Assembly: GCA_020073485.1 (NCBI GenBank)
Contig: JAIQFB010000027.1
Span: forward strand, 1 to 64,000
Length of the DNA stretch: 64,000 nt
DNA from: Terriglobia bacterium
GTDB lineage: Bacteria; Acidobacteriota; Terriglobia; Acidiferrales; UBA7541
Direction of reading: 5' to 3'
Shown here: piece by piece, positions 11,760 through 50,557 of the stretch
Layout of the letters: each line of letters starts with the position of its first letter
Position numbering within the stretch: position 1 is the first letter of the stretch
The notes under the pieces: model-generated
Seen by the model: only the letters and a program-made list of their open reading frames with translations
Told to the model about the DNA's origin: nothing
The model's database searches: none
Position numbers and translations under genes: made by a program

Positions 11760-12393
11760 GCTTTTTTCACGGATGAGGGGAGGCCGTCTCAGGCCTCCCG
11801 CTCCTCAAGAATCGCAGCCGCAACGGTCGAACACGCGGATTTCGACGCGCCAAAAGTTTCCTTCCCGCGGTTGCGAGATCCAGACAGCTGAAACTCGGAA
11901 TTTCGCTTCGCTCCGCCCTCCAAAACATTCCGAAATAATTTCAGCCCTCCAAACCCCAGCAGAATCGCCGGGCAGTAAGCCAAATGGGATTCGTGTTCGG
12001 GGAATTCCCGTATCAGATAAACCCTGAAAGAGTACTATATGGTAATACACAATTAGTGTACCGTGTCGCCAAGTTATTGGGTCAAGTTACCAATCGAGTG
12101 TGACGTGGATCACTGCAGTCACCATGGTGAAGATGAGAAAAGACCCGCATTATTTCCAGGGCCTTGCCGGCCCACGAACCATCGCGGGGATCGTCGTAGT
12201 GGTCAGGTTTAGAGGCACGGATGCCGGGGCGGTGTTTGTTTTTCTCGTTGACGTGACTTTTAAAGTGACAAGTGAGACAGGAGCCTGAAATCAATCAAGA
12301 GAAGTGCATCCGCGCTTAACAGCTGGATGGGCGGACGGTGTCGAGGTGGGAAAGATTCCGGTGGAGACGAAACGGACGGAATAGGGGGCTGTG
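11760..12393. other. 634-bp gap before the TonB receptor gene; hairpin and small palindrome only
   Basis: Just after the LVIVD gene GGGAGGCC (11778-11785) pairs perfectly with GGCCTCCC (11792-11799), a terminator-like hairpin without a T run. A short palindrome TACAC-AATTA-GTGTA lies at 12046-12060 and could be a protein-binding site. Short frames on both strands (for example minus 12082-12294, with a chance CLTCH) have no other protein character. Confidence 0.4.
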
Positions 12394-15300
12394 ATGGGGA
12401 CCAGGGATTTCATGCATGGGTTGTCAATATCAGTCTTGATTTTTCTGATGACTTGGATGGCACTTCCAGCTTCGGCCCAGGAAGCGGGCACAATTCTGGG
12501 AATTGTCAGAGACTCTTCCGGCGGCGTGGTGCCCAACGCAAAGGTCTTGGTCACGAATGCGGATACGAATGTGGCTCGGAACGTGACCACCGGCGACGAC
12601 GGGGCATACCGCGTGCCGGCATTGCGTCCCGGCAACTACACGATCAAGGTGGAAGCCGGAGGGTTTCAGACCCAGACGACAACTGGTCTGGTCCTGAGCG
12701 TGGCTCAAGACCTGGTGACCAACATTACATTGCAAGTGGGCACTGCCACGCAGGAAGTAACCGTGACCGGAGAAGCCCCCATTGTCAACACCACGACAAG
12801 CACTTTGGGCGCCCTGGTCGACGAGCGGCGCGTGGCCGACCTGCCCCTGAATGGCAGAAACTACCTTGACCTCACGCTGATTCAGCCGGGCATCCTGGTC
12901 AACTCCTCTCCCACAACCGGCGGGTCCGGTTCTTCCGGCACCTGGTTCAGCAGCAACGGCATGCCCCCGCGCTCGAACAACTACACCATCGACGGCGCCT
13001 TGATGGGCAACCAATACGCCACGGGTCCGGGCTCGATTGCGGGCAGCACCCTGGGTGTGGACGGAATCAAGGAATACACGATCGTGACGAACATGTTCGG
13101 CCCGGAATACGGCATGACCATGGGCAGCCAGATGGTCATTGTCAGCAAGGGCGGATCGAACGGCTGGCACGGCGATGTGTTCGAATACCTCCGAAACAAT
13201 CATCTGGACGCGAGGAATTTCTTTGATCCGCAGGCTTCGAAGGCCAATAACATCTTGATTGATGCCAGCGGCAACCCAGAGCGCCTGCCTCCTTTCAAGC
13301 GCAACAATTTCGGGGCCTCCGGCGGCGGGCCGATCAGAAAAGACAAGACTTTCTTCTACCTGGTCTACGAAGGATTGCGGCTGGCCCAGCAGGACACCAT
13401 TCAAGACACAACTCTTCCCGCGAATTGTCATTTTGTAAATATTTCAGGGTCGGGTCCAGGGACGGGTCCCGTGATCTTGGGAGGCGGGCCCATTCCATCA
13501 GGGGTCACGCTTCCGCCAGGTTTCGCAGCATCCAACCAAATGAATGGCATACAAACTCAATTAACCGGCGCCACGCTGGCCACCGGCTGCGGCGTGCCGG
13601 GGACGGCGACCTTTGTTCCTGCTACTACACAGGTAAACCCCATGGTCACCCCCTGGATCGGTCAATTTCCCTTCCCGAATGAAACTATTTCCGGATCGAC
13701 GCTCAACTACACGTTTCCCGGCCTGACCCATGTTCGGGAAGATTACACGCAGCTTCGCGTGGACCACAATATTTCGAACTCGGACACGCTCTTCGCGCGC
13801 TACACGTTCGACGACACGCACCTGATCGATCCCTACGCGGCGATCACGGCCACCGACACGGGGACCGGCTACCCGCAGTGGAGTTCCGTAGGACTCAGCC
13901 GGAACCAATATATTACGGTGGGCGAAAATCACATTTTCTCCGCGAGCCTGCTCAATTCCCTTCGGCTGTCCTTCAGCCGCACGAATTTCAAGGGGCTGAC
14001 GCGGCAGAATCTGGTTCCCGGCCTCAATCCTAATTTCGGCCTGAAGGACGCCCCCGGATCGTCGTGCTTCACCCCCTACACCACGGATTCTTCCGGAAAT
14101 GTTTTGACCTATCCCAACTGCGTCTGGTCGTACATTCCGGGGAACATCAACGGGGGACTCGCGCCCGGTGCGGGTGTCACGACGCTTTCCGCAAACACGA
14201 CCTACCCCACGTTCCATCCGCAGGGCATCGTGACGGTGGCGGACGACATCTTCGTGAGCCGCGGCAAGCACGCGTTCAAGTTTGGGGCCCTGATCAATTT
14301 TTATGGAGAAGGGTTGCAACAGTATAAGGGCGCCACGGGAAGCACGGCTTCTGGCAACTCCCTTGCGAACTGGCTCTCGGGCAAAACGACGAGTTATCTG
14401 GCAGTCACGCCCGTGCCTGGATTCGCCACGAACGGAGTGCTGAATGCGCCGTACCAGGGCTTCTACCTGGACCGGCATTTCTCATGGAAAACATTCGGGT
14501 TCTACGTCGGTGACGACTACCGCGTGACTTCGCGCCTGACTCTCAACCTGGGCCTGCGTTATGAGCTCCAGACCATGCCGCATGAGCTGTACGGCCGCAA
14601 TTCGATTATCTCCGACCTGGAAAACGGTTCCAACACCTACAAAATAAGTCCGATCTTCCCGCGCAACTGGTCGCTGAGGGATTGGAGCCCGCGCATCGGG
14701 TTTGCTTGGGATATCTTCGGGAACGGCAGGACCGCCTTGCGGGGCGGCTTCGGCGAGTACTGGGATATTTCCAATATCGGATCCATGATCGGGCAGTCGC
14801 CGCAAGGAGTTCCGCCGTTCGGAAATCAAACCCAGATTTCCCAGCCGGCCGCGCAATACGCGATTCCGTTTGTGGATATCAACGGCAATCCGGTCACAAA
14901 CCCGAATCCAGGGTTCGGACCGGCGGGGACGATCGTAACCGATTTCACGTCGGCGCAATTCGGAAAGGCCCTGCAGATGACGGACCCGAACCTCAAGAAT
15001 CCGCATTCGCTGCAGTGGAACCTTACGCTGGAGCAGCGGCTGCCGTGGGACATCAAACTCTCTGTATCCTACGTGGGAAATCGCGGCATCAACCTGTTTT
15101 CCCTGGTGGAGGGCAACCCTGTGGTGCCCACCAATCTCGTCAACGGTGTTTTGCCCCCCAACACAATGCCAACCTATAGCGTAGCCGGCGGCACGGCCGC
15201 AAGTTTTGCCTGTTTTAACAACGCGCTGACATTCTCGAACGGCACGACGCAGCCCCTGGTCCTGCCCATCGGCACTAATCCTCCGGTCAAGACCACGATC

Positions 15301-16236
15301 GTGCCGGGGATGGCGCAGTATCCCTGCAGGCAGAATCCTTACTTTACGAGCGCGGAATTCGTATCGTCACCGTCGAACTCCTGGTACAACGGCCTTCAGG
15401 TCGCCGTCACCAAGAGGCTCGCCCATGGATTGGATGTGCAAGGCGCATTCACTCACAGCCGATCGACCGACACGACTTCGGGCCAGATGTACAACACCGA
15501 TTGTTTCTACGCGATCGGAGTTTCCATCGGTTTCGTCCCGCAGAATCTGTCGCTGTCGAGAGGGCCGTCGTGTTCGGACGTTCCGAACGCCGCGCATTTC
15601 AGCATCCTGTACCACTTCCCGGTGATGAAAGAGAATGGGTTCCTTTCCAAGGTCACCAACGGCTGGTGGATGGGGAACATCGTGAGCATTCAACAGGGTT
15701 TCCCCTTCACCCCGGTCGTGGCTCAGGACCGCGCTCTCGGCGGCGTGATTACCCAAAGCAATGCCACGCCTCCGACTCTCAATACGACCTCGACCACGCC
15801 CACCATCGGCGGGACGACTTACAATTTCATTCCCTACAACGCCAGCACCGTAATCACGGGCAATCCCAACCAGTGGTTCAATCCCCTGATGTTCGGCGAA
15901 GCTCAACTCGGGACCATTGGCAACGCGCCGCGCGATTTCCTGCGGGGGCCTGGCCAGGGGGATTGGGATTTCTCCGTGGTGAAGGACACGAAAATCGGAT
16001 ACCTCGGGGAAGCGGGAAATCTGGAATTTCGCGCCGAGATGTTTAACATTCTAAACCGCCCAAACTTTGGGCCTCCAAACAATACGGTGTTTGGCGGCAC
16101 TTTAGCCGCTTGCGGTGCTGCGCCGGTAAACGGCGCGGGCTGCAACAACCAGAGCCCGTTCGCGACCGCGGGACAAATCACAACCACTTCAACCAAGTCG
16201 CGGCAGATTCAGTTGGCGTTGAAGCTGATTTTCTAA
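12394..16236 (+). CDS. TonB-dependent receptor, Oar-like, with N-terminal carboxypeptidase-regulatory domain (copy 1)
   Basis: 1280 residues from the ATG at 12394 (AGGGGG, 5 nt upstream; a GTG at 12391 is too close). A signal peptide ends near LPASAQE. A carboxypeptidase-regulatory/Ig-like domain follows (about 30-115: ILGIVRDSSGGVVPNAKVLV, YRVPALRPGNYTIKVEAGGF). The plug contains EAPIVNTTTSTLGALVDERR and LPLNGRNYLDLTLIQPGI, then a long outer-membrane barrel ending in a terminal Phe (QIQLALKLIF). Such receptors are abundant in Acidobacteria; substrates are mostly unknown. Barrel hallmarks include GYPQWSSVGLSRNQYITVGE and RLTLNLGLRYE. A paralogue with the same architecture is encoded at 32557-36282 on the other strand. 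Confidence 0.93.
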   Translation: MGTRDFMHGLSISVLIFLMTWMALPASAQEAGTILGIVRDSSGGVVPNAKVLVTNADTNVARNVTTGDDGAYRVPALRPGNYTIKVEAGGFQTQTTTGLVLSVAQDLVTNITLQVGTATQEVTVTGEAPIVNTTTSTLGALVDERRVADLPLNGRNYLDLTLIQPGILVNSSPTTGGSGSSGTWFSSNGMPPRSNNYTIDGALMGNQYATGPGSIAGSTLGVDGIKEYTIVTNMFGPEYGMTMGSQMVIVSKGGSNGWHGDVFEYLRNNHLDARNFFDPQASKANNILIDASGNPERLPPFKRNNFGASGGGPIRKDKTFFYLVYEGLRLAQQDTIQDTTLPANCHFVNISGSGPGTGPVILGGGPIPSGVTLPPGFAASNQMNGIQTQLTGATLATGCGVPGTATFVPATTQVNPMVTPWIGQFPFPNETISGSTLNYTFPGLTHVREDYTQLRVDHNISNSDTLFARYTFDDTHLIDPYAAITATDTGTGYPQWSSVGLSRNQYITVGENHIFSASLLNSLRLSFSRTNFKGLTRQNLVPGLNPNFGLKDAPGSSCFTPYTTDSSGNVLTYPNCVWSYIPGNINGGLAPGAGVTTLSANTTYPTFHPQGIVTVADDIFVSRGKHAFKFGALINFYGEGLQQYKGATGSTASGNSLANWLSGKTTSYLAVTPVPGFATNGVLNAPYQGFYLDRHFSWKTFGFYVGDDYRVTSRLTLNLGLRYELQTMPHELYGRNSIISDLENGSNTYKISPIFPRNWSLRDWSPRIGFAWDIFGNGRTALRGGFGEYWDISNIGSMIGQSPQGVPPFGNQTQISQPAAQYAIPFVDINGNPVTNPNPGFGPAGTIVTDFTSAQFGKALQMTDPNLKNPHSLQWNLTLEQRLPWDIKLSVSYVGNRGINLFSLVEGNPVVPTNLVNGVLPPNTMPTYSVAGGTAASFACFNNALTFSNGTTQPLVLPIGTNPPVKTTIVPGMAQYPCRQNPYFTSAEFVSSPSNSWYNGLQVAVTKRLAHGLDVQGAFTHSRSTDTTSGQMYNTDCFYAIGVSIGFVPQNLSLSRGPSCSDVPNAAHFSILYHFPVMKENGFLSKVTNGWWMGNIVSIQQGFPFTPVVAQDRALGGVITQSNATPPTLNTTSTTPTIGGTTYNFIPYNASTVITGNPNQWFNPLMFGEAQLGTIGNAPRDFLRGPGQGDWDFSVVKDTKIGYLGEAGNLEFRAEMFNILNRPNFGPPNNTVFGGTLAACGAAPVNGAGCNNQSPFATAGQITTTSTKSRQIQLALKLIF

Positions 16237-16430: not shown

Positions 16431-17822
16431 ATGAAAGTGGTCAGTCGAAATATCATTCTCGGTGCGATGGCCTGCGCCGCGATCGGTGCCCTGATGTGGG
16501 TACAGTTCTCAAGCACCGGGAAGGTCAGCGCGGCACAGAAACAAACGGGTGGATGGGTCGATCCAGCGAACCCGAGCGACGAACTGGTGGACGGTCCCTA
16601 TCGAGTCGACCCGAACTGGCCCAAACCCCTGGCCACGTTATTTCCAGAGGAGAAAGGCTGGACGTGGGGCGCGGTGCAGGGCATCTTCGCGCAAAACCCG
16701 GATCGTATCTTCGTCGCGATGCGGGGAGAATTGCCCGAAGTGGCCAAGATCAAGCCCCAATATGCCGAACTTCAGAATGATCTGGGCATGACGGTGCACT
16801 TGCAGGTCCCCGGGACCGGGATGTACGCGCGCAACGCCTCCGTGGGTCCCTATGCCAGCCCGGGCGAAGCCTCTGACGATTACCTGGGGATCGATGGAAA
16901 GGATTTCCGCTGGAAACACATCATAACGGTATTCGATGGGCAGGGAAATGTGAAAGAGGCGTGGACACAGTGGGATTCGCTGTTCAAGCCCGACGACCCG
17001 AACAAGCTCTCCCAGGGTCGCGTTCACAAGATTCTGATCAACCCTTATGATCCCGAAAAGCGCGTGTGGGCCATCGATGACGGCCACGAGGTCATCCGAA
17101 TCTTCAGCAACGACGGCAAGAAGCTCCTTCAGTCGATCGGCACGTTGAACACGACAACTGAGCGGAACGCGAAGATGACCGGAAATACCGGCCGCCCGTC
17201 GTATATCCAGAAGACCGGTCCTGCCAGCGAGACCTTCGGCCGTCAGACCGATATCGCGTGGCTGCCGGACGGCACCTTCTTCGTCACCGACGGTTATGAG
17301 GAAACGCGCGTGGTGAAATTCGACAAGAACGGCAAGTTTCTGATGGCCTGGGGCGAGCGGGGCGAGCAGGGCGGCCATGAGATGCGGCCGAACTACTTCA
17401 ATACCGTCCATGGCATCGCCATCGACGCCCAGCGCCGGATCTACGTCAACGACCGCAGCAACCGCCGCATTCAGATCTTCGACGAGAACGGCAAGTTCCT
17501 CAACCAGTGGTACCTCGGCGACGGACCCGCCGCGACGTATCACATCCTCATGGCCGCCGACCAGCACCTCTGGGCGTCGGACGGTCACGGCAACTTCAAG
17601 TTCTACAAGTTCGACCTGGAAGGAAGGCTACTGTACTCCTGGGGCACGATGACCCCGGCGCCGGGCGGACTATGGGGAACGCACCAGTTCAGCGTGGACC
17701 AGAACAACAACCTCTTTACCGCGGAGGTTTGGGGCGGACGTCCGCAGAAGTTTGTCCCCCGCAAGGGCGCCGACCCGGCGTTGCTTGTGGGCCAACCGAT
17801 TCGCGCGGCCTGGAAAGAGTAA
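16431..17822 (+). CDS. Exported NHL-repeat beta-propeller protein
   Basis: 463 residues, starting 6 nt after a GGAGGA ribosome site. An N-terminal hydrophobic segment (ILGAMACAAIGALMWVQF) is a signal peptide or anchor. NHL-type blades follow: TDIAWLPDGTFFVTDGYEET, VHGIAIDAQRRIYVNDRSNR (classic RI.VfD in RIQIFDENGKFLNQW) and HILMAADQHLWASDGHGNFK. NHL propellers are usually ligand- or protein-binding; some family members are peptidylglycine lyases or lactonases, but no such site can be shown here. A strong terminator follows the gene, so TonB receptor plus NHL may form the end of one transcript. Confidence 0.85.
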   Translation: MKVVSRNIILGAMACAAIGALMWVQFSSTGKVSAAQKQTGGWVDPANPSDELVDGPYRVDPNWPKPLATLFPEEKGWTWGAVQGIFAQNPDRIFVAMRGELPEVAKIKPQYAELQNDLGMTVHLQVPGTGMYARNASVGPYASPGEASDDYLGIDGKDFRWKHIITVFDGQGNVKEAWTQWDSLFKPDDPNKLSQGRVHKILINPYDPEKRVWAIDDGHEVIRIFSNDGKKLLQSIGTLNTTTERNAKMTGNTGRPSYIQKTGPASETFGRQTDIAWLPDGTFFVTDGYEETRVVKFDKNGKFLMAWGERGEQGGHEMRPNYFNTVHGIAIDAQRRIYVNDRSNRRIQIFDENGKFLNQWYLGDGPAATYHILMAADQHLWASDGHGNFKFYKFDLEGRLLYSWGTMTPAPGGLWGTHQFSVDQNNNLFTAEVWGGRPQKFVPRKGADPALLVGQPIRAAWKE

Positions 17823-17841: not shown

Positions 17842-17876
17842 AGGCCGGGAGAAAAATTTCTCCCGGCCTTTTTTTT
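17842..17876 (+). terminator. Rho-independent terminator after the NHL gene
   Basis: A 13-bp perfect stem AGGCCGGGAGAAA / TTTCTCCCGGCCT with a 2-nt apex (AA; in solution a slightly larger loop) is followed by a run of T. It begins 20 bp after the stop codon. Confidence 0.95.
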
Positions 17877-18012
17877 CTGGATGCAGGCGTTCCTGGTCCC
17901 GTAGTTCCGCTCAGCAATGAAAATGGGAGTTCGCGGTGCGCCGCGTGTTATCATCCCGCCAAGAATGTCGACCGGATGCCAGTAAATGATTGGTTGCGAG
18001 GGAGGATTGGGG

Positions 18013-19740
18013 ATGCCATGGACAAAATGGCGGGTGCGGAATTTTTTTCATTTCCGGAGTAGCGCATATTGCCTGATCCTGCTGGTGAGTATTTTCGTGG
18101 GTGTTCGCGCGGCGGCGCAGGATTCGATGGCCGCGCGGATTGAGCATTCGGGAAATGAGCCGCAGAATTGGCTCACCTACTACGGGAATTACGGCGCGTG
18201 GAGTTACAGCCCCCTACAGCAGATCAGCCGCGACAATGTGAAGCAGCTTGTCCCGGTGTGGGCGTTTCCCGCGGGCTATCCCACCAATCCGTCGCTGCGA
18301 GTGGGGCTGGAGGCGGCGCCGCTGGTCGTGGACGGCGTGCTCTATCTGGTGGGCATGCAAAACAATGTGTACGCGATCGATGCGGTTACGGGGAAGTCGG
18401 TCTGGACCTATGTTCATCCCTGGACGGAAAACGCCGTGTATCCCAGCAACAAGGGCGCGCGCGGGCTCGCGATCGGAGACGGCCTGGTGTACTTGGCCTC
18501 GCAGGACGATCACATCGTCGCCCTGGACGCCAAGACCGGCAAGGTAGCGTGGAACGTAACGACGGACGACGTGTTCAAATGCCGCTGCTCGCTCACCTCG
18601 GCTCCGCTCTACGTGAAGGGCAAAGTCATCAGCGGCGTGGCCGGCGGAGACGGGCCGTTTCGCGGGTACATCAAGGCATTGGACGCGAAGACGGGCAAGC
18701 TCCTCTGGCAATTCAACACCATTCCCGAGCCCGGCGAGCCTGGATCGGAAACCTGGGTTGGAGATTCGTGGAAAACCGGCGGCGTGGCCACGTGGCTGCA
18801 AGGCTCCTATGATCCGGAATCAAACGTACTTTACTGGGGAACCGGAAACGCCTTTCCGGATCTGGTCGGAGAAGGCCGGCAGGGCAGCAATCTCTACGGC
18901 GCATCGCTGGTTGCGCTGGATGCCGACACCGGAAAATTGAAATGGTATTACCAGGAAACGCCACACGATGTGTATGACTTCGACTCCAACCCGGAGCCGG
19001 TTTTGCTTGACGCGACACTGGGCGGACGCGCGCGAAAGCTGGTTCTGCATTCCACCAAGGGCGGGTACGCGTACCTGCTGGATCGCGAGACCGGCAAGTT
19101 CATTATGGCGTTTCCATTCGCGGACACCGTGAATTGGTCGGGCGGCCTCGACAAAGAAGGCAAACCCATCGAGGCGCTGATTCCGTCGGATAAGAACAAC
19201 GACCGCCTGACTTGCCCGGGCACTGCCGGCGCGCGCAATTTTAATCATTCGGCCTACAGCCCGCGCACCGGCTGGTGGTACACCTCGTCCACGGAGCTGT
19301 GCAATCACATGACGCCTCCGAAAAATCCCCTGGGCGACCAGAATTTGCGGGTAGGGCGCGTAATCAATCCGGATTCACCGCCGCACATCAGCGCGTTCGA
19401 TCCGCTGACGGGCAAAAAGCAGTGGGAATTTGCCACGAAATATTTTAATCAGTCTTCGCTCCTGGCGACTGCCGGGGATTTGATTTTTGGCGGCGACCTG
19501 GAGGGCGACGCCTTCGCGTTGGACGCGAAGACGGGAAAGAAACTTTGGTCGTTCAATACAGGTGCGCGCATCGTCGCGCCGCCCGTCAGTTTCTCGGTGA
19601 ATGGACGGCAATTCGTGGCCATCGCCACCGGCGGAGGCGCCGTGATCGACGGTCAAGTCTCGACCTACTATCCTGAAACCAAGGATCGCCAGCCGCAGCC
19701 CGCGGCGACGCTCTTTGTTTTCGCGCTGCCCGAGAAGTAA
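18013..19740 (+). CDS. Exported PQQ-type eight-bladed propeller, quinoprotein alcohol dehydrogenase-like
   Basis: 575 residues from the ATG at 18013 (GGGAGG, 7 nt upstream; the in-frame ATG at 17986 lacks a site). A signal peptide ends near RAAAQ. Repeated W-docking blades include YAIDAVTGKSVWTY, VALDAKTGKVAWNV, KALDAKTGKLLWQF and FALDAKTGKKLWSF. Active-site comparison with methanol/ethanol dehydrogenases: the metal-ligand Asn is in GTGN (N279), the catalytic Asp in TPHDVYDFD is D322, and D324 sits at the +2 position associated with lanthanide-type enzymes. The usual Glu ligand is Asp (GGD213) and the vicinal Cys-Cys pair is absent, replaced by a region without Cys; a CRC at 190-192 is nearby. 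There is no haem domain. Dehydrogenase activity is plausible but unproven. Confidence 0.85.
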   Translation: MPWTKWRVRNFFHFRSSAYCLILLVSIFVGVRAAAQDSMAARIEHSGNEPQNWLTYYGNYGAWSYSPLQQISRDNVKQLVPVWAFPAGYPTNPSLRVGLEAAPLVVDGVLYLVGMQNNVYAIDAVTGKSVWTYVHPWTENAVYPSNKGARGLAIGDGLVYLASQDDHIVALDAKTGKVAWNVTTDDVFKCRCSLTSAPLYVKGKVISGVAGGDGPFRGYIKALDAKTGKLLWQFNTIPEPGEPGSETWVGDSWKTGGVATWLQGSYDPESNVLYWGTGNAFPDLVGEGRQGSNLYGASLVALDADTGKLKWYYQETPHDVYDFDSNPEPVLLDATLGGRARKLVLHSTKGGYAYLLDRETGKFIMAFPFADTVNWSGGLDKEGKPIEALIPSDKNNDRLTCPGTAGARNFNHSAYSPRTGWWYTSSTELCNHMTPPKNPLGDQNLRVGRVINPDSPPHISAFDPLTGKKQWEFATKYFNQSSLLATAGDLIFGGDLEGDAFALDAKTGKKLWSFNTGARIVAPPVSFSVNGRQFVAIATGGGAVIDGQVSTYYPETKDRQPQPAATLFVFALPEK

Positions 19741-19801
19741 TGACAAGGTGATTGACCTCCATGCGCGCATTTTTCCGCAGGCCAACACAGGAGTACTGAT
19801 C

Positions 19802-21145
19802 ATGGGGATTGCAAAGACAGGATTCTGGGGAGCCATCGCCCTGACCTTCGCGATGTTTCTGCCTGCTTCGGCTCAACGCGCCAAACCGATCCCGCTTCCC
19901 AAAGGCTCGTTCGGGAAAAACGTGGAACTCATCGGCTACACCGACGTAAACGGCCACATTCCGTTCAAGATGTCGATCCAGCAGGTCAATGGGCGCTGGT
20001 ATCTGTATTCGGCCAGCCTGTATGATCGCGGCTGGAGTGTGATTGACGTTACGAATCCCGCTGACCCAACCGTTTTGAACTGGATTCCCGGTCCCAAGAA
20101 TACCTTTACAGTTCAAGTGGATATCGCCGACGGCAAGATGATTACCGCGCTCGAACGGTCGCAGTTTGGAGGAGACACGGATCACAGCAAGCCCTGGGAC
20201 GATGGCGTCCTGATCTGGAGCCTGGCGGATCCCGTGCACCCGACGCTTCTGGGCCAGTACAAGACGGGCGGTTTGGGCACTCATCGCGACGGCTACTATG
20301 GCGGCCGCTACGTGCATCTGGCCGCGGCCATGAACGGATATGCCGGAAACATCTACGTGATCATCGACATCAACGATCCCGCGCATCCCGTGGAAGTGTC
20401 GCGATGGGCGTTGCCCGATCAGAAGCTGGCCGATCCAAATGCACTCAATACAGCGTTTCCCCACGGCGCGGGACTGCACGGGCCTCCGGTGGTCATCGAT
20501 AATCTGGCTTATCTCCCGTACGGGAAAAAGTTCGTCATTCTGGACATCAGCGACATCAAGAATCCCAAGGAAGTCAGCGAAATCACGTTCGATCCCCCCT
20601 ACGATCTGGGCCTTGCGGTGCACACGGTGCTGCCGTTTCCAAAAAGAAAAATTGTGGAAACCAACTCCGAACCTTTTGGCGGATGCGATACCCAGAGTCC
20701 CAGCCAGGTTTCGCTGATCGATGTCGCCAATCCAGCCAAGCCGCACATCCTTTCTTTTTTGCCCGAGCCAACGGCTCCGCCGGATGCGCCGTACAAGGAT
20801 TTCTGCGCGAAGGGAGGCAGCTTCGGATCACACAACGTGAACATGCTGTTTCACAACCCGTTCGTCGATGATTCGGACAATATCCTGTACCTGACCTATT
20901 TCAGCGCGGGCTTGCGGATCTACGACATTTCCGACGCTCACGAGCCGCGCGAGATTGGTTTTTATATTCCGCCCGATCCCTTGAAGAAAGGAAATGGAAT
21001 TCCCGGGGACCGCAAGCCCGTTTCGACCGCCGCCGACGTGCTGGTCGACAAACGGGGATACATTTATCTTTCGGATTCGACGCAGGGCATTTCCGTATTA
21101 CGCTACACCGGGCCGAAGCCGGGGCCTTCGCTGCCGCTGCATTAA
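19802..21145 (+). CDS. Secreted LVIVD-repeat beta-propeller protein (copy 2)
   Basis: 447 residues from the ATG at 19802 (GGAG, 8 nt upstream). A signal peptide ends near LPASAQ. The repeats WSVIDVTNPADPTVLNWIPG, IYVIIDINDPAHPVEVSRW, FVILDISDIKNPKEVSEI and GLRIYDISDAHEPREIGFY parallel those of the first copy (10416-11759) blade for blade, and the lengths are identical. The gene follows the PQQ-type propeller by 61 bp and is followed by the MBL-fold gene, so these three likely form a transcript. Binding partner unknown. Confidence 0.85.
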   Translation: MGIAKTGFWGAIALTFAMFLPASAQRAKPIPLPKGSFGKNVELIGYTDVNGHIPFKMSIQQVNGRWYLYSASLYDRGWSVIDVTNPADPTVLNWIPGPKNTFTVQVDIADGKMITALERSQFGGDTDHSKPWDDGVLIWSLADPVHPTLLGQYKTGGLGTHRDGYYGGRYVHLAAAMNGYAGNIYVIIDINDPAHPVEVSRWALPDQKLADPNALNTAFPHGAGLHGPPVVIDNLAYLPYGKKFVILDISDIKNPKEVSEITFDPPYDLGLAVHTVLPFPKRKIVETNSEPFGGCDTQSPSQVSLIDVANPAKPHILSFLPEPTAPPDAPYKDFCAKGGSFGSHNVNMLFHNPFVDDSDNILYLTYFSAGLRIYDISDAHEPREIGFYIPPDPLKKGNGIPGDRKPVSTAADVLVDKRGYIYLSDSTQGISVLRYTGPKPGPSLPLH

Positions 21146-21223
21146 AAGCACACGATGAATCAGACACCGGTCCGAACCGGAAATTTCAGTCTCGCTTGGG
21201 TAGCATCCATTTCAGGAGGGTTC

Positions 21224-22165
21224 ATGAAAATGAAATCGCTGGCAGGTCTTCTGTGTGTCCTCTGTGCTTCGCTACTAGCTCCACCGCTGCCGGCTCAGGA
21301 CCTCGGCCCGCACTTCACGAAGATCAAGGATGGGATTTACGTTCAGACCGCCAAATCCACTCCGCAGGCGAACTCCAACGGCAGCATCGTGGTGACCTCG
21401 GAAGGGGTCGTGTTGATCGACACAGGCCAGACGGCCATCGACAGCCGGGAGATTGCCGAAGCGGTGAAGAAACTCACGCCGCAGCCGGTGCGGTTCATCA
21501 TCGATACGGAAACGCATCCCGATCATTCCTACGGGCATTTTCTTTTTTCTCCTCCGGCCGTGATCATTAATGCCGAAGGCGCCGGGGCGGAGATGAAACA
21601 GTCCTTTGATGCGAAGCGCATGAGTGACCAGGAAAATCAATCGCCGGAAATGAAGGCGGCGCTGCAGGGTTTCCGGCTGATTCCGCCGCAAATCGAATAC
21701 GGCAACAAAATGACGTTGCGGGTGGGCGAGCGCACGTTCGAGCTGTTCAACCTGGGGACGACGCACAGCCTGGCCAATACGGCTGTCTGGCTTCCCAATG
21801 AACGTGTCTTGTTTGCCGCATCGGTGGCCGTGGAAGACCAGATCAACACCATCCGCCCTCATACCAATATCCCCGATATGCTCGCGATGATGAAGATGAT
21901 GAAGGCGCTCAACGCCGAGGTCGTGATTCCGGGGCACGGCGCTCCCACAACCAATAAAATTTTCGATTTTTACACGGGCTTTCTGGAAACACTGTTGCAG
22001 CGCGTCGGGAAATTAATGAACGAGGGCAAAACGCTCGATCAGATCAAGGCGGAACTGCGCATGCCCGAATATGAAAACCTCGCCGGGGCCAAGGAGCGCA
22101 TCCCCAATACCGCCGAGGCAGCGTATCGCGCGATCAAAGGCGGATATTCGGTCGAGACGAAGTAA
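21224..22165 (+). CDS. Exported metallo-beta-lactamase-fold protein with altered metal site (copy 1)
   Basis: 313 residues from the ATG at 21224, directly after AGGAGGG; a longer in-frame start at 21155 lacks a site. A signal peptide ends near PLPAQD. The MBL fold is seen in GSIVVTSEGVVLIDTGQT, IDTETHPDHSYGH, FNLGTTHSLANTAVWLPN and VVIPGHGAPT. The canonical HxHxDH is ExHxDH here (E96, H98, D100, H101) and the usual Asp after the 'vLF.gD' strand is missing (VLFAASVAVED). A di-zinc hydrolase site is thus incomplete, so it may bind one metal or have a different chemistry. A second MBL protein with an intact motif is encoded at 36738-38189. Confidence 0.85.
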   Translation: MKMKSLAGLLCVLCASLLAPPLPAQDLGPHFTKIKDGIYVQTAKSTPQANSNGSIVVTSEGVVLIDTGQTAIDSREIAEAVKKLTPQPVRFIIDTETHPDHSYGHFLFSPPAVIINAEGAGAEMKQSFDAKRMSDQENQSPEMKAALQGFRLIPPQIEYGNKMTLRVGERTFELFNLGTTHSLANTAVWLPNERVLFAASVAVEDQINTIRPHTNIPDMLAMMKMMKALNAEVVIPGHGAPTTNKIFDFYTGFLETLLQRVGKLMNEGKTLDQIKAELRMPEYENLAGAKERIPNTAEAAYRAIKGGYSVETK

Positions 22166-22434: not shown

Positions 22435-24078
22435 GTGCGTTCAGTGATCAAATTCACGGGCTTGCTGGCGGCAGTTCTTTGTGCCAGCGCTGTTTGGGCA
22501 AGTAATCCAGGGGTGATTCAGGGAGTGGTGAAGAGCGCTTCTGGTCAGCCGGTCGCCGGCGCTTATGTAAAAGTGGCGGACGCCGATAAGGGTCTGACGA
22601 TCATGGTCGTTTCCCAGGAGCAGGGACGCTACACGGCCAAGAATCTGCCGGCGGGGAAATACACGGCGCAGGCGATCGGCGGAGAGTTTCAAAGCGACAA
22701 AATTCCGGTGGATGTCACCGGGTCCAAGCCGGCCATGGCCGATCTCTCACTAAGCAACCAGCGCGCTCCCGCACTCGCACCAGGATGGCCGGGCACACCG
22801 GGAGTCGTGGGCGGAGGCGAGGAGTGGAGCAAGAATCCGGTACCTGATCTGCCGGAAGGACCTGGCGCGGACATCGCCCTGGCCAAGTGCGGACAGTGCC
22901 ACGCGCCCAGCTGGTTTTTGAGCTTTCGCGGAGAGCGCGATAACTGGGCCGCGCTGATCGACTCCATGCGCTCGAATATTGCCGCCAATCGCGCGGCTAA
23001 GGATTTTACCGAAGCCGAACTCAAGACCCTGACCGACTATTTCGCCGCACATTTCTCCAGGCAGCGGCCCGATGAAAACAGCCGGCTGCCGAGGACCCTG
23101 GCAAAAGGAATCGAAACCAAATACGTGGTGGTGGATTACAAAATCCCCAGAATCGAAGCCGAATCGCACGAGATGACGGTCGATGCACGCGGCAACGGCG
23201 TGGTCGGCGAGAGAAACAGCGGTTTGGTGGGCTTGCTCAACCCGGATACCTACGAGTTCAAGGAATTCACTCCTCCGGCGGCTGCCTCGCCCAGAGTTCG
23301 GATCGGCGCCATCAGCAAAGGCCGCGGCGACACCGTCTGGATGCTCGACGGCGGTCCCAACCGGCGCTGGATGGAATTGAACACCGTGACCGGAGAGTTT
23401 CGTTCATTCCCGGTGCCTGCCGACATTAAGGGATCGGGAAACGGCAACACCATCCGCCAACACCCCAATGGAACCGTGTGGGTTGCCAGCGGCGGCGGAA
23501 ACGGCATGGTTGGCCTGGATCCCGCGACCGGCAAGTTCACCCTTTACCCGGCGCCGGAAGGCATTAAATCCGGCAAGAGCGTCGGGCCGTATGGCTTCGC
23601 GGTCGACGGCGGCGGCAGCATCTGGTTCGCTGAGTACGCCAATAACGGCGTGGGTCGCCTCGATCCGGAAACCGGCAAAATAGATGAATACAAGTCGCCG
23701 ATTGCAGGCTCGGTCCCACGAAAAGTCGGGTTCGACAATCGTGGAGATATCTGGATCGCGCTGCACGAAACCGGGCAACTCTGGAAGATCAACTACAAGA
23801 ATCCTTCAGACATGAAAACGTTTATGCCCCCGGGAGATCACCTGGGCACATATTCCCCGTGCGGTGACTTGAAAAACGGCTACATCTGGGTCAGTCTGCA
23901 AAGCGTCGATAAAGTTGCACGCTTCGATCCCAAGACGGAAAACTGGGCGGAGTTCCCGGTTCCCTATCCGGAAACCGATCTGCGCCGCATTGAGATCGAC
24001 CAGTCGCACCCGAATCGCGTGTGGTGGACCGGGACGCTCTCGGGCCACTTCGGTTACGTAGAGGTGATGGATAAGTAG
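22435..24078 (+). CDS. Carboxypeptidase-regulatory / c-type haem / Vgb-like propeller fusion (copy 1)
   Basis: 547 residues from a GTG, which is chosen because AGGAGG lies 7 nt upstream. A signal peptide (ASAVWAS) is followed by an Ig-like carboxypeptidase-regulatory domain (IQGVVKSASGQPVAGAYVKV, GRYTAKNLPAGKYTAQAIGG). Then comes a short cytochrome c-like domain with a single haem motif CGQCH (C152, C155, H156) and, to the C-terminus, a six- to seven-bladed propeller like virginiamycin B lyase (MTVDARGNGVVGERNSGLVG, GFAVDGGGSIWFAEYANNGV, GRLDPETGKIDEY). Export and haem attachment place it in the periplasm. Antibiotic lyase activity should not be inferred from the family name. Copies 2 and 3 lie at 38304-39983 and 42691-44403. 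Confidence 0.88.
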   Translation: MRSVIKFTGLLAAVLCASAVWASNPGVIQGVVKSASGQPVAGAYVKVADADKGLTIMVVSQEQGRYTAKNLPAGKYTAQAIGGEFQSDKIPVDVTGSKPAMADLSLSNQRAPALAPGWPGTPGVVGGGEEWSKNPVPDLPEGPGADIALAKCGQCHAPSWFLSFRGERDNWAALIDSMRSNIAANRAAKDFTEAELKTLTDYFAAHFSRQRPDENSRLPRTLAKGIETKYVVVDYKIPRIEAESHEMTVDARGNGVVGERNSGLVGLLNPDTYEFKEFTPPAAASPRVRIGAISKGRGDTVWMLDGGPNRRWMELNTVTGEFRSFPVPADIKGSGNGNTIRQHPNGTVWVASGGGNGMVGLDPATGKFTLYPAPEGIKSGKSVGPYGFAVDGGGSIWFAEYANNGVGRLDPETGKIDEYKSPIAGSVPRKVGFDNRGDIWIALHETGQLWKINYKNPSDMKTFMPPGDHLGTYSPCGDLKNGYIWVSLQSVDKVARFDPKTENWAEFPVPYPETDLRRIEIDQSHPNRVWWTGTLSGHFGYVEVMDK

Positions 24079-32556: not shown

Positions 32557-35500
32557 CTAGAAGGATACCCGCAACGCCAGTTGAATCTGGCGCGCGGTGG
32601 TTGCGGTTTGTGTGATCTGCCCATAGTTACCGGTGTGAGTAACCACGCCGGGGTCCGCGCAGAACGTAGCCCCCACCTCAGGGCAATGTATAGCTATATT
32701 GGACAAGTTGAGGTTATTGGTCCCGTTGAAGGCGACCATTCCCGTGTTGACGAAGCCAAAATTCGCCCGGTTCAGCAGATTGAAGAACTCCGCCCGGAAC
32801 TGGACATTGCCTTCCTCGCCCAATAGTCCAAGCTTCGTGTCTTTGACCAGGGAGAAATCCCACTCCCCCAGTCCGGGGTTCCGCAAAAGCCCGCGCGGAG
32901 CGTTGCCGAGATGTCCGAGTTCAGGCACACCGAACATACTGATGTCGAACCAATGGTTCGGATCGCCGGTGATGACCTTGCTCGGGTCGAATGGATTGAC
33001 ACCGTTTAGAGGCGAGCTGGACGTATTGATACTCGCCACCGAGGAAGCATTTTGGGACACAATGCCGCTGAACGAGCGGTCGTTGTTCACGATCGGGACA
33101 AACGGGTTGCCCCCCTGGATGGACACAATGTTGCCGATCCACCAGCCGTTCGTCACCTTTGACAGGAATCCCTCGGAATGCAAGCCCGGCAGATGGTAAA
33201 TCACGTTCATGTGCGCCGATTTTGCGATGTCGAAGCAGGACGGCGCATAGTCGAGCGCCAGGTTAAAGGGATTGTGGCCGAAATTGGCCTGGGCAGGTCC
33301 GCCGCAGTCATCGTTAAACCGCGTCCCTTCCGTTGTGTCGGTGGACCGGCTCCAAGTGAATGCCCCCTGGAAGATCAAGCCGCGACTCAGGTGTTTGGTC
33401 ACATTCACCTGTAAGGAGTTGTACCAGGAACTCGCCGCGTTGGTAAAAAACAGCGCGCTGGTAAAGAACGGGTTCACCCGGCAGGGAGCTGTCCCTGTGA
33501 ACGACTGCGGAACCCCGGTAACGGGGTCAATGGGAATGACACTGTTGCCGCACCCGGCCAGACCCGAGGGTACGTCGTAGGTAGCCACCGTATTGGGCGG
33601 CAGAACCCCATTCACGAGATTGTTCGGTTTCACCGGGTTGCCTTCCATTCCCGTGTAGAGATTCAGGCCGCGCCGGCCGACATACGAGACCGCAAGCCCT
33701 ATCCCCAGGGGAAGCTGCTGCTCGACGGTGAGGTTGTATTGCAGCGAGTGCGGCGACTTATCCTGATAGTCGCCCAGTTGCAACGACCTCCCCGCAGGTA
33801 TGCCCTTCTGCTGAAGTAGTGGCAGGAGAGGAAGGGTGATATGCGTGTTCCCAACGGCGGTGGTATTTGCCACGAACGGCAGAACACCAGTTGAGTTTTG
33901 CGTCAGCAGCGCGCCGATGTTGCCCACGTCGTAGTAGATTCCGAGACCGCTGCGAACCGACGTTTTCCCATTGCCGAACACATCCCAGGCCAGGCCGATT
34001 CTGGGGCTCCAGTTTTTGTACGTCGAATTCTGCCAGATCGCGTTCGGAACCAGGGTGGGATTGAGCGATGTCCTGATGTCCACGATGGTGGACTGCCTGT
34101 TGAACATCTCGGTGATCGGGGTCATGAACTCGTACCGCAAGCCGAGGTTGAGGGTCAACCGGGAGGTCATGCGGTAGTCATCCTGTCCATAAAAGCCGAA
34201 GGTGTACCAGGTGTGGTCGCGGTCCAGGAAGCCCGAGTTGCCAAACTGCGAACTGAGCTGGTTGCAGGGTAACGTGGGACTACATGACGGATCGGAAGCG
34301 CCTGTACCGGGCGTCACTACGTTGAAATTTGACGCCGTGTCGCTCATGAAAGTCCCGATGCCGGCGTAAGTGATCGCCCCGAAGATGGACTTGGACTGCA
34401 GGTGGGGTTGGTTCATGCGCGTGCCCAGGAAGCCGAACTGGAAGGAATGCTTCCCGTGGGTGTAGTACACGTCCTCGTCCAGCGTCCACACGTTGTTGAA
34501 ATGGTAGTTGGGGAACGTGCCCGGGGGCGTCAGAGCGGTGATGCCCGAGCCGGGACTGAAGCCCATGGTGAACAGGCCCGGCACACCCGACCAGATGCAA
34601 ACTGCACCCGGCGAATAGTTACAGGTGCTCGTGTTGTCATGCAGGAAGAAGTTGGGGTTCATCGGTGTATTCGCTTCGCTAAAGCTGTTGAGATAGATCA
34701 TGCGGCTGAACGACAAGCGAAACGAGTTGAGCACGGTGGGCGAAAAAACGTGGTTCTCCCCCAGGGTAATGTACTGGTTGCGGCTCCGGCCGATATTCGT
34801 ATATTGCGGATATCCGGGGCCGGTGTCCTGCAAGGACAAGTTGCCGCCCAGATAGGGGGTGTGGATGACGCCGTCGTCGAGGGTGTAGCGGCTGAAGAAG
34901 CTGTCGCTATCCGAAAACGTGTGGTCCATGCGGAGCTGCCCGTAATCATCCCGGGCGCGGCTGAAACCATTAAAGGTATTGTTCGATGCGCCTGTTTCGT
35001 TGGGGAACGGAAACTGCCCGATCCAGGGCTGGACAACCGGGTCGACATTGACAACCTGGCCGGCGGCAAAACCCGAGTTACATGCGTGGGCATTAATCAA
35101 TTGCCAAGGTCCACCCGCCAGCGGCCCCTGTAGAATCTGCTGGTTCGCGGCCGAAACACCTGCAGCGGTGGCTGCCGTTGTCGCGATGGTAGTGAGCGGT
35201 CCGCCTCCGATAATGACGTTTTGAGCGCCATTGGTGACGAAATGGCAGTCCGCATTCATCGTTGTATTCTGAATCGTGTCTCCCTGCGCCACGCGGACGC
35301 CTTCGTAGACCAGGAAGAAGAACGTTTTGTCCTTCTGGATGGGGCCGCCGAGCGAGGCTCCGAAGTTGTTGCGCTTGAATTGGGGCAACCGCTGCAGGTT
35401 GCCGCTGGCATCGGTCAAAATGTGATTCGCTAGGTTGGGCTGCGGATCGAAGAAGTTCCGCGCATCCAGATGATTGTTCCGCAGGTAGTCGAATGCCGAT

Positions 35501-36282
35501 CCGTGCCACGTGTTGCTGCCGCTCTTACTGACGATGACCATCTGACTGCCCATCAGCAAACCGTACTCGGCGCTGAACATACTGGTGACGACCTTGTATT
35601 CCTTGATGCCGTCCACGCCCAGCGTTGCGCCGGTAATCGAGGAAGGCCCCGTGCCGTTCTTGGTCACGGTCACGGCGCCGTCCAGCATGTAGTTATTTGA
35701 TCGCGGGGGCGCGCCGTTGCTGCTGTACCACAGCCCGGCGTCTCCCAAGCCCGAGTGAGTGGTCTGAACAATGCCTGGCGAAAGCAGCGTCAGGTCCGTA
35801 TAGTTTCGGCCGTTCATGGGAAGTTCGGAAATCGTCTGGTCATTGATCAAGTTGCCCAGCGAGCTGGTGGTCGTATTGATGATCGGGGCTTCACCAGTCA
35901 CGGTTACTTCCTGAGTTGACGAGCCCACTTCCATGGTGGGGTTCACGACGATTTCAGAGGCCACGTTCAGGACCAGCGACATTTGCGTCACGGTCTTAAA
36001 TCCTTCTTTTTCGGCTTTTAACGAGTAGTTTCCGGGTTTCAGGCCGGGCACCCGATAGGCGCCGTCATCACCGGTATTGGCTGTACGCGTTTCGTTCGTA
36101 TCGGAGTTCGTCACGGTAATCTTCGCAGCCGGCACAGTGCCGCCCGAGGCGTCTCTGACTGTACCGAGAATCGAGCCTGATTCTTGCGCGGATGCTGGAA
36201 CGGCCATCCATCCCAAAATCAGCGCGAACAGCATCACCCCTGCCCATATACGACATTTTCCACTTGAAGTATGTTCGAACAT
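32557..36282 (-). CDS. TonB-dependent receptor, Oar-like, with N-terminal carboxypeptidase-regulatory domain (copy 2)
   Basis: 1241 residues from the ATG at 36282 (GAGGAG, 5 nt upstream); the longer frame to 36351 lacks a site. A signal peptide ends AVPASAQE. The regulatory domain has ILGTVRDASGGTVPAAKITV and YRVPGLKPGNYSLKAEKEGF; the plug contains EAPIINTTTSSLGNLINDQT and LPMNGRNYTDLTLLSPGIV; the barrel includes GYPQYTNIGRSRNQYITLGE and ends IQLALRVSF. It is clearly a paralogue of 12394-16236, but with an internal region that differs in the extracellular loops, suggesting related but not identical ligands. It leads directly into two Kelch genes and the amidohydrolase. Confidence 0.93.
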   Translation of the reverse strand: MFEHTSSGKCRIWAGVMLFALILGWMAVPASAQESGSILGTVRDASGGTVPAAKITVTNSDTNETRTANTGDDGAYRVPGLKPGNYSLKAEKEGFKTVTQMSLVLNVASEIVVNPTMEVGSSTQEVTVTGEAPIINTTTSSLGNLINDQTISELPMNGRNYTDLTLLSPGIVQTTHSGLGDAGLWYSSNGAPPRSNNYMLDGAVTVTKNGTGPSSITGATLGVDGIKEYKVVTSMFSAEYGLLMGSQMVIVSKSGSNTWHGSAFDYLRNNHLDARNFFDPQPNLANHILTDASGNLQRLPQFKRNNFGASLGGPIQKDKTFFFLVYEGVRVAQGDTIQNTTMNADCHFVTNGAQNVIIGGGPLTTIATTAATAAGVSAANQQILQGPLAGGPWQLINAHACNSGFAAGQVVNVDPVVQPWIGQFPFPNETGASNNTFNGFSRARDDYGQLRMDHTFSDSDSFFSRYTLDDGVIHTPYLGGNLSLQDTGPGYPQYTNIGRSRNQYITLGENHVFSPTVLNSFRLSFSRMIYLNSFSEANTPMNPNFFLHDNTSTCNYSPGAVCIWSGVPGLFTMGFSPGSGITALTPPGTFPNYHFNNVWTLDEDVYYTHGKHSFQFGFLGTRMNQPHLQSKSIFGAITYAGIGTFMSDTASNFNVVTPGTGASDPSCSPTLPCNQLSSQFGNSGFLDRDHTWYTFGFYGQDDYRMTSRLTLNLGLRYEFMTPITEMFNRQSTIVDIRTSLNPTLVPNAIWQNSTYKNWSPRIGLAWDVFGNGKTSVRSGLGIYYDVGNIGALLTQNSTGVLPFVANTTAVGNTHITLPLLPLLQQKGIPAGRSLQLGDYQDKSPHSLQYNLTVEQQLPLGIGLAVSYVGRRGLNLYTGMEGNPVKPNNLVNGVLPPNTVATYDVPSGLAGCGNSVIPIDPVTGVPQSFTGTAPCRVNPFFTSALFFTNAASSWYNSLQVNVTKHLSRGLIFQGAFTWSRSTDTTEGTRFNDDCGGPAQANFGHNPFNLALDYAPSCFDIAKSAHMNVIYHLPGLHSEGFLSKVTNGWWIGNIVSIQGGNPFVPIVNNDRSFSGIVSQNASSVASINTSSSPLNGVNPFDPSKVITGDPNHWFDISMFGVPELGHLGNAPRGLLRNPGLGEWDFSLVKDTKLGLLGEEGNVQFRAEFFNLLNRANFGFVNTGMVAFNGTNNLNLSNIAIHCPEVGATFCADPGVVTHTGNYGQITQTATTARQIQLALRVSF

Positions 36283-36737
36283 GCTAGCTCCTCTCGTTGC
36301 CCGGATACCCAACGATAACTCATCTGAAATTTTCACTACTCCACTACCCATGACCCAATAACCCCCACCGATGGAAATTTCATGCTTCCCTCGTTGAAAT
36401 ACACTCTGCTGGATGAATTATTTGCCGCGGCGAGAATTTTCTCTCTCAAGGAACACACGCGTACCCTGGATACGACTGGGCCGAAACCGAATAGCGGGCG
36501 AACTATAGCGAAGTCCACAAAATCCAAGCGCATACACCCTCGCTTGAACGACCTCAAGGATTCAAATATGTTCGATAAATATAAGAGGCCGTCAACACAC
36601 CCACCCGAGTCAAAGGTATGTATCAGCTTGTAGCAATAAATGACGACACCTGTCAACCAGATTCAGTCAAAAATCGAACCAAGTAACTTATTAAAAATGT
36701 TACGTACGAGCTTTCTACTAATGCTCCGCGCACGACA
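36283..36737. other. 455-bp AT-richer gap upstream of the second TonB receptor; no gene
   Basis: This stretch separates the MBL gene stop (36738) from the receptor start. It is visibly richer in A+T than its surroundings and must hold the receptor's promoter and leader if the receptor is transcribed separately, but no convincing -35/-10 pair was found. Open frames here (for example minus 36336-36656) have no domain character. Confidence 0.4.
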
Positions 36738-39983: not shown

Positions 39984-40136
39984 TGGTTGGATCCTCAGTA
40001 CCCCGTCCGGGGCGATGCGTCGATTGGGAACATAGCTCCCACCCAATCCGGAAAACTTTGGCGGAGTATATGATAGCCACGCGCCGGTGTCACGCGGGAT
40101 TCCGGATGACCCCGCTGCGCAAAATGGAAAGCGATA

Positions 40137-49540: not shown

Positions 49541-50557
49541 TTAATTCAGGTTTCCACCCCCGTGGACTTGCCGGCAGACTTTGCAATAGGTGGGCGGCAA
49601 TGCATTGTCCACGCGGTGCTTCACGGGCTTCAGGGTTTTTAGATACGCGTAAATCGCCTTCAAGTCCTCATCCGACATGTTGCGAAACGTTGACCAGGGC
49701 ATGATCTGGTTCAATTCGCGCGCGCCGGCGTAACCGGTCCGGATCGTCCGCACAAAACGCGCTTCATCGTAATACGGAATTCCGGAAGGATCCGGAGTCA
49801 GATTTGCACTCGCAACCCGGCCCCATGGGCCTGCCAGCACAAATCCCCCGGCAAAATCCATGTCGGCGAGGGGTTTGCCCTTGTCCTGCGGCGTATGGCA
49901 ATCGGCGCAAGCCGCTGCACTGACCAGGAATTCGCCGCGCTTCACAGGATCGGAAATGTCCGACCGAGGCACGGATTCCGTAATTGGTTCGGGAGCGCTC
50001 AGCATGAGGTGGTTTACAGGAAACGCAACCTCCGTTTTGGGCAGTGGATTGCGCACCGGCGGAAGTGAACGGAGATAGACAACGATGGAAGCCACGTCTT
50101 CGTCCGGCAATTCCCGAAAATGCTGGTACGGCATTAGCGGAAACAGGCCGCGTCCGTCGTGGCCGATGCCCTCGCGAATCGCCCGAGCAAGGGCGTCGTC
50201 GCTCCACGTTCCGGATCCAGTCTCCGGGTCTGGCGTAAGATTGGGAGCCACGATATGGCCGGGCAAACCCTCGAGCATTGAGAAATCCTGCCCCGCTCCT
50301 TTCATCCCCTCGACGATCGGCGCGTCGTGCTGCGTCCAGTCGTGCTGCGAGTGACAATCCAAGCAGGCATCGACCGATTCAACCAGGTATTTGCCGCGGG
50401 CAAGACGCTCCGGGGTACGCGAGAATGTGCGGCCTGTCAGTGCACGTGCCCTTGGGCCGAGGAACGGTTGCCATCCGGCCGTCAAACCAATCCCCACAAT
50501 CAGGATCAGGGCGATTGCGCCTGCGGTAACGATCAACTTCTTTCGCACGTTTTTCAT
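49541..50557 (-). CDS. Membrane-anchored dihaem cytochrome c
   Basis: 338 residues with an N-terminal membrane anchor (KLIVTAGAIALILIVGIGLT). Two haem c motifs, CLDCH (C65, C68, H69) and CADCH (C217, C220, H221), each lie in a domain with a similar ending (LPDEDVASIVVYLRSLPPV and MSDEDLKAIYAYLKTLKPV), so it arose by domain duplication. Candidate axial methionines are FPLMPYQHF and IMPWSTF. This architecture matches cytochrome subunits that accept electrons from periplasmic alcohol or aldehyde dehydrogenases. A C-terminal CKVC follows. It is the last gene after E1-alpha and E1-beta, an unexpected partner. Confidence 0.92.
   Translation of the reverse strand: MKNVRKKLIVTAGAIALILIVGIGLTAGWQPFLGPRARALTGRTFSRTPERLARGKYLVESVDACLDCHSQHDWTQHDAPIVEGMKGAGQDFSMLEGLPGHIVAPNLTPDPETGSGTWSDDALARAIREGIGHDGRGLFPLMPYQHFRELPDEDVASIVVYLRSLPPVRNPLPKTEVAFPVNHLMLSAPEPITESVPRSDISDPVKRGEFLVSAAACADCHTPQDKGKPLADMDFAGGFVLAGPWGRVASANLTPDPSGIPYYDEARFVRTIRTGYAGARELNQIMPWSTFRNMSDEDLKAIYAYLKTLKPVKHRVDNALPPTYCKVCRQVHGGGNLN

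Follow-up and report, generated by a model that had tools for sequence, protein, structure and literature searches.

The DNA analysed here, referred to as the window, is a stretch of 64,000 nucleotides from a soil bacterium of the Terriglobia (contig JAIQFB010000027.1, positions 1 to 64,000). On its forward strand, at 18013..19740, profile, sequence and fold matches place a gene for a PQQ-dehydrogenase-like eight-bladed propeller of 575 amino acids, here called P0001. Read by eye, a ribosome-binding-site-like GGGAGG (18000..18005, +) stands 7 bases 5' of the ATG at 18013, and a terminator-like GC-rich hairpin, ggccgggag/ctcccggcc followed by a T run (17843..17876, +), lies between P0001 and the upstream gene, which encodes an NHL-type propeller protein (16431..17822, +). 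Residues 1-35 of P0001 (18013..18117, +) form a putative Sec signal peptide by hydropathy, with a hydrophobic core at about residues 16-29, followed by RAAAQ and a presumed cleavage site. Downstream come, in order, an LVIVD-repeat protein (19715..21145, +), whose true start is probably internal, a metallo-beta-lactamase-fold protein (21155..22165, +) and a CxxCH-Vgb protein. The NHL, LVIVD and metallo-beta-lactamase-fold genes are syntenic at the locus of the P0001 orthologue L021, and the last of the three weakly resembles quinoprotein relay zinc metallohydrolases, at 114.7 bits where the cut-off is 280. The CxxCH-Vgb gene (22435-24078) is a fusion of CarboxypepD_reg, a single cytochrome-like CxxCH stretch and a Vgb-lyase propeller, and its product is a possible electron partner.

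These genes belong to a series of secreted propeller-type genes (LVIVD, NHL, PQQ, Vgb and kelch) that spans 10410-32521 of the window, the kelch genes beyond 25506 being called by eye only. A CarboxypepD/outer-membrane-barrel gene lies within the run (12391-16236), and a second gene of similar size is found at 32557-36351. Further CxxCH proteins are encoded at 38304-42425, 42691-44403 and 49541-50557, and one of these neighbours a large gene whose start is twin-arginine-like (SRRDLLKG) and which, judged by eye, is similar to a molybdopterin aldehyde oxidase. P0001 has 13 matches in the source genome (G000), of which at least two are fragments of a single gene. Between P0001 and its 91% identical orthologue L021, dN/dS is 0.08, which indicates purifying selection and led us to reject a pseudogene or decaying gene.

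Family and fold of P0001

The profile for PQQ-dependent dehydrogenases of the methanol/ethanol family, TIGR03075, scores 486.9 bits on P0001, a narrow pass of its cut-off of 480.05; four of five other clade members tested also exceed the cut-off, and the paralogue L002 falls below it (448). TIGR04528 (acido-empty-quinoprotein group A), the second-best NCBIfam match, reaches 446.2 bits against a cut-off of 650, and we reject membership of that group. The best PDB sequence match in a phmmer search is PedH (E = 1e-91), with XoxF and quinohaemoprotein alcohol dehydrogenases also among the best solved relatives. An AlphaFold2 model built from 17 sequences (mean pLDDT 80, pTM 0.85) likewise lies nearest in the PDB to PedH (TM 0.83, 34% identity), and its top 30 fold matches are all quinoprotein dehydrogenases. 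The matches that follow, BamB-like folds and others, have query-normalised TM values of at most 0.50; together with a TIGR03300 score of 82 bits against 285.2, this led us to reject BamB-like membership. By sequence and fold, P0001 is a genuine eight-bladed quinoprotein dehydrogenase-like protein in a distinct clade of a family that is itself known. It is predicted to be a secreted, alcohol-dehydrogenase-like protein that probably uses PQQ and a rare-earth metal.

Metal site

The initial annotation had pointed out D213, N279, D322 and D324 in the open reading frame, and the sequence bears it out. In phmmer alignments these four fall on E199, N281, D323 and D325 of PedH (6zcv; residues counted along the rows) and on E197, N285, D327 and D329 of XoxF 6DAM. 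Glu199, Asn281, Asp323 and Asp325 are given as the ligands of Pr-PedH in PMC11845868, where the ligand set of XoxF 6DAM is also tabulated. Asn279 (18847..18849, +) is thus kept, as had been claimed, and Asp213 (18649..18651, +), in the GGD motif, does stand at a Glu ligand position. In Asp322-Phe-Asp324 (18976..18984, +), the predicted catalytic Asp is followed at +2 by the lanthanide-type extra Asp, which both alignments keep on the extra metal ligand rather than away from the metal. The view of P0001 as a divergent quinoprotein with lanthanide-type metal-site residues agrees with these alignments.

The extra Asp is a weaker sign than the initial annotation claimed. It does not set P0001 apart, since 68 of the 76 aligned family members outside the clade also have DxD (alignment of 100 rows), which makes the motif the family norm; we reject it as a distinguishing mark of P0001, and DxD by itself tells little about what distinguishes a quinoprotein of the Acidobacteriota. 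Asp for Glu at column 213 is a feature of the clade: among the 24 clade rows the column has Asp in 16, Glu in five and Tyr or Phe in three, the last three having Asp at 279. All 24 rows, including the three without an acid at 213, have three carboxylates among the four ligand positions, a constant count that is consistent with a kept metal site. The three rows share one branch of the tree, so the combined swap at 213 and 279 is one event rather than three. They are L002 (1471-3177 of contig C10), a paralogue in the source genome, L022 and L052; in each, Tyr or Phe stands at the Glu/Asp ligand position and Asp at that of the Asn ligand, as if the acid had changed places while the carboxylate count stayed at three.

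We consider it unlikely that P0001, with its DxD, works with PQQ and Ca2+ or some other divalent ion. Membrane glucose dehydrogenases that are said to complex Ca, Mg, Zn or Sr do have DxD as well (PMC11996626), but the site of P0001 has three conserved carboxylates, as in XoxF and PedH, and L118, whose best PDB match is the ExaA-type 1flg, and its tree neighbour L123 have Ser at +2.

An acidobacterial clade with an invariant cysteine pair

Textbooks describe the vicinal disulphide as characteristic of quinoprotein alcohol dehydrogenases, and what it does is still under debate. The initial annotation had noted its absence from P0001, and indeed Cys131-Cys132 of PedH aligns with Pro144-Ser145 (18442..18447, +). 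The annotation had missed a second pair, Cys190-Arg191-Cys192 (18580..18588, +), so that its overall reading, right about a divergent quinoprotein with lanthanide-type site residues, gave weight to a DxD that is not special and passed over the invariant C190-x-C192. In the 100-row alignment, all 24 clade rows have two cysteines at columns 190/192 and no vicinal pair. Two cysteines occur there in none of the 76 other rows, of which 51 keep the vicinal pair and 25 have neither. The new pair is mostly Cys-x-Cys, with Cys-Cys, one residue shorter, in L049-L051 and L142; the occurrence of both forms at one place suggests that the pair rather than its exact spacing is conserved.

Because the cysteine trait itself had helped to draw attention to the first rows of the clade, we rely for the clade on a tree built without both Cys loops, on a gap in profile scores and on members found later. 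The tree (70 rows, quick method) puts the 24 clade rows on one side of a branch with an SH-aLRT of 100, and L093, which branches next (support 90), has the vicinal pair. Its references L115, L116, L118, L121 and L123 come from plasmids and carry enzyme-type labels that we assigned, L115 being labelled PedH/ExaA-like by its motif and L116 XoxF5. A 13-member profile gives clade members at least 784 bits and the rest at most 603, among the matches listed for 396 genomes of the phylum (best three candidates per genome); profile A2 contains the Cys columns and is not fully independent of the trait. Left out of the counts were L048 (a copy of L021), L010 (part of L004), the fragment L040, and L011-L013 and L043-L047, which are under the 150-bit limit.

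With the top three candidates per genome scored, clade-level scores were reached in 59 of the 399 genomes sampled from the source's class and in 24 of 136 genera. They fall at 68 places, with scores from 997 down to 707, of which 12 had been listed earlier. The later set consists of the 55 readable places among the 56 newly fetched, L239 not being readable as one frame, together with L141 and L142 (G066). All 57 readable members, fitted to the old alignment columns with their insertions dropped, have the new cysteine pair, lack the vicinal one and keep both Asn at 279 and DxD. Pairs of members within the clade go down to 39% identity. For other phyla, the search covered exact short peptides only, together with a plasmid collection, in which none of 612 records reaches 60% identity and the 60 listed reach 38%. 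On these sequences, the P0001 clade is a well-supported group of Acidobacteriota.

Position of the new pair

In such propellers, a blade closes at each W-motif, and from there a loop runs into the opening strand of the following blade. W-motifs can be read in the P0001 sequence at W131, W180, W232 and W311. The place of the old pair lies 13-14 residues after W131 and 5-6 before R150, and the new pair lies 10-12 residues after W180 and 3-5 before T195. These spacings, with T195 matching the PQQ-binding Thr159 of MxaF in its distance from the metal ligand, place the new pair in the corresponding loop of the next blade, on the side of the cofactor; we infer that C190 and C192 lie near PQQ. The structural model is weak around the site of the old pair (residues 141-150, mean pLDDT 57, against 77 for 181-190 and 80 for 191-200).

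Mature P0001 has only four cysteines. Cys401 and Cys430 (within 19213..19302, +), present in 24/24 clade rows, align with cysteines in XoxF 6DAM, and since these are the only other cysteines, a C190-C192 bond is the simplest reading for P0001. One or two extra mature cysteines are found in 13 of the 24 clade rows (columns 298, 329, 473 or 482), so there the pairing is not forced, other partners being possible.

The disulphide that lies above PQQ in known enzymes is held to help pass electrons to the cytochrome (PMC8546591); by the title of an ExaA study cited there, enzyme altered at its vicinal pair still oxidises substrate with dye but no longer transfers to cytochrome. We tentatively propose, with a confidence that falls a little short of even, that across the clade evolution has moved the redox-active disulphide over PQQ from one propeller loop to its counterpart in the following blade, where it takes the form Cys-x-Cys or Cys-Cys. 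A replacement is not a necessary reading, because 25 of the 76 non-clade rows without a new pair have no vicinal pair either. Indeed, P0001 could be a working PQQ dehydrogenase in which C190 and C192 are only a structural clip, or are unrelated to PQQ, and in which the absence of the vicinal pair is an unrelated event, as in other groups. The same 25 rows speak for this, as the fold seems to manage without either pair, but the pair is invariant in a clade that reaches down to 39% identity, the strand that follows its loop bears the PQQ-contact Thr, and the shorter CC form kept in L049-L051 and L142 points to conservation of the pair, not of a spacing. We regard a clip as somewhat unlikely and a moved disulphide as the better, if tentative, account. 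A further quinoprotein branch without either pair is represented by L114 and L124, from Methylobacterium and Roseomonas plasmids.

We found no description of such a pair in literature searched by title and visible abstract; an earlier account in Keltjens 2014 or Good 2020 is possible. A clade that lacks the vicinal disulphide and has an invariant cysteine pair elsewhere on the same face offers direct material for testing the role of the disulphide.

Linkage to cytochrome genes

Among 16 clade loci of the first set that lie outside the P0001 sub-branch, a gene of one cytochrome c family is adjacent in ten, within a few genes in three and lacking in three; of these last, L025, a CGCN-type member, offers only a related stretch inside a large ORF about 3 kb away, and at L085 the contig ends. 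L024 and L026 are examples of clade genes with the cytochrome encoded beside them. In the later set of 57 loci, the gene is adjacent in 41, near in five and lacking in 11, among these L141 and L142, and it is beside or near 46 of the 55 newly fetched clade loci. All seven cytochromes scanned have Pfam cytochrome c domains. The clade-linked cytochromes (for example, L023 11741-12682 and L128 7649-8635) are two-domain c-type proteins; in 46 of the 47 examined, a single CXXCH haem motif is accompanied by a single one of the unusual form CX4CH.

Linkage is equally common outside the clade. With the same 1500-base flanks, 47 non-clade control loci have the gene adjacent in 34, near in two and lacking in 11, against 41, four and ten for 55 clade loci. 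We therefore reject a neighbouring cytochrome as a mark of the clade or of its cysteine pair: linkage is general and says nothing on the pair. In the P0001 sub-branch, which makes up 8 of the 24 rows, that cytochrome family has no gene alongside, and the best match in its six genomes is 72 bits; two genes upstream of one member, L136, lies an unclassified CxxCH ORF.

PQQ pocket and PQQ supply

Several predicted pocket residues are retained in P0001. Arg150 (18460..18462, +), in an NRG-type motif, aligns with the conserved Arg that follows the Cys pair and is present in 24/24 clade rows. Thr195 (18595..18597, +), found in 19/24 clade rows, lies 18 residues before the metal ligand, as Thr159 lies before Glu177 in MxaF, where Thr159 binds PQQ (PMC8028316, Table 6). 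Trp261 (18793..18795, +) is likely the PQQ floor tryptophan and is present in all 24 clade and all 76 other rows; we take it to be the counterpart of Trp243 in MxaF. Lys349 (19057..19059, +) is Lys in 24/24 clade rows, and this column in the other 76 rows has 52 Arg, 18 Lys and 6 Glu. By the conserved K/R-x-G motif, Lys349 presumably stands at the position of Arg331 in MxaF, a residue given in PMC8028316. A Trp at column 480, present in 44 of the 76 non-clade rows, is absent from the clade, which counts against the enzyme reading given below.

In the source genome, which is 97% complete, no match to PqqE, PqqC or PqqB exceeds the cut-off (best 95.4, 30.9 and 37.5 bits, respectively); PqqE-like matches below the cut-off occur in 14/14 control genomes. 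Among 18 clade-carrying genomes, four (G065, G066, G067 and G077) have PqqB over the cut-off with an adjoining PqqC, two of these PqqC being split matches below the cut-off, and 14, some of them incomplete, do not. A search of 14 genomes with the E. coli PQQ receptor PqqU found only weak TonB-receptor matches in the source genome (31 bits) and a strong partial match at a contig end in G323 (216 bits). According to PMC12124388, PqqU within Acidobacteria is found only in Vicinamibacteria, and PQQ is small enough to diffuse and can be scavenged. Since synthesis genes over the cut-off are lacking, PQQ would have to come from outside, and we think that the source organism probably takes it up.

These observations bear on the suggestion in the initial annotation that P0001 might be PQQ-free. 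P0001 could be a propeller that no longer binds PQQ and serves for binding or other chemistry in a genome without PQQ synthesis. Such a reading gains from the lack of PqqB, PqqC and PqqE over the cut-off and of a convincing PqqU, from the sub-branch genes having no linked-family cytochrome alongside and from the setting of the P0001 gene among other secreted propeller proteins. Against it stand the TIGR04528 score below cut-off, the invariance of R150, W261, K349, D322 and D324 in 24/24 clade rows, the possibility of scavenging (PMC12124388), and the nearest sub-branch relatives, those in G065-G067, whose genomes have PqqB over the cut-off. We judge an empty propeller to be quite improbable. 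The retained R150, T195, W261, D322 and D324, with a dN/dS of 0.08, argue for a working metal-quinone enzyme, and neither the residues of the site (R150, W261, K349 and T195) nor purifying selection favours a PQQ-free state.

Proposed mechanism

We give about an even chance to the reading of P0001 as an alcohol (or related) dehydrogenase of PQQ type that is secreted and belongs to an acidobacterial clade with a re-built cofactor pocket. In such an enzyme, three carboxylates and an Asn would hold a lanthanide(III) ion, with the shorter Asp213 in place of Glu. An alcohol-type substrate in the periplasm would be oxidised by metal-activated PQQ, probably obtained from outside the cell, with D322 acting as the base. 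C190 and C192 would form a disulphide near the PQQ rim and so stand in, by position or in electron transfer, for the vicinal disulphide that is absent, and electrons would pass to a c-type cytochrome. If the disulphide has indeed moved, the clade would be a natural experiment on the purpose of that disulphide, with a structurally different bond in the same electron-transfer or cofactor-seating role. It would also include lanthanide-site enzymes that run, in some hosts, on scavenged PQQ.

Comparison with known systems

The name of TIGR04528, compared with P0001 by profile score only (446 against 650), suggests, as we take it, a genome without PQQ synthesis, which G000 fits. XoxF methanol dehydrogenase (6dam and others) shares with P0001 the DxD site, cysteines at the positions of Cys401 and Cys430, and the overall fold; P0001 differs in having no vicinal pair and Asp for Glu, and it lies on a different branch. 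PedH, the lanthanide-dependent alcohol dehydrogenase of Pseudomonas putida (6zcv/6zcw), shares the fold and the aligned Asn, Asp and extra Asp ligands, but has Cys131-Cys132 and Glu199 where P0001 instead has P144-S145 and Asp213, together with C190-x-C192. Of the Glu and Asn ligand pair of lanthanide enzymes, Asn279 is kept and Asp213 stands for Glu. Grouping with XoxF or with PedH was not found in the tree, in which the 24-row branch is separate from the PedH/ExaA-like references. The vicinal Cys-Cys that P0001 lacks is typical of the family, not universal. Other quinoprotein dehydrogenases of Acidobacteriota (for example, L054-L076 and L089-L106) mostly have DxD and often an adjacent cytochrome (34 of 47 control loci), and they lie outside the clade, either keeping the vicinal pair or having neither it nor the new pair that P0001 and its relatives share.
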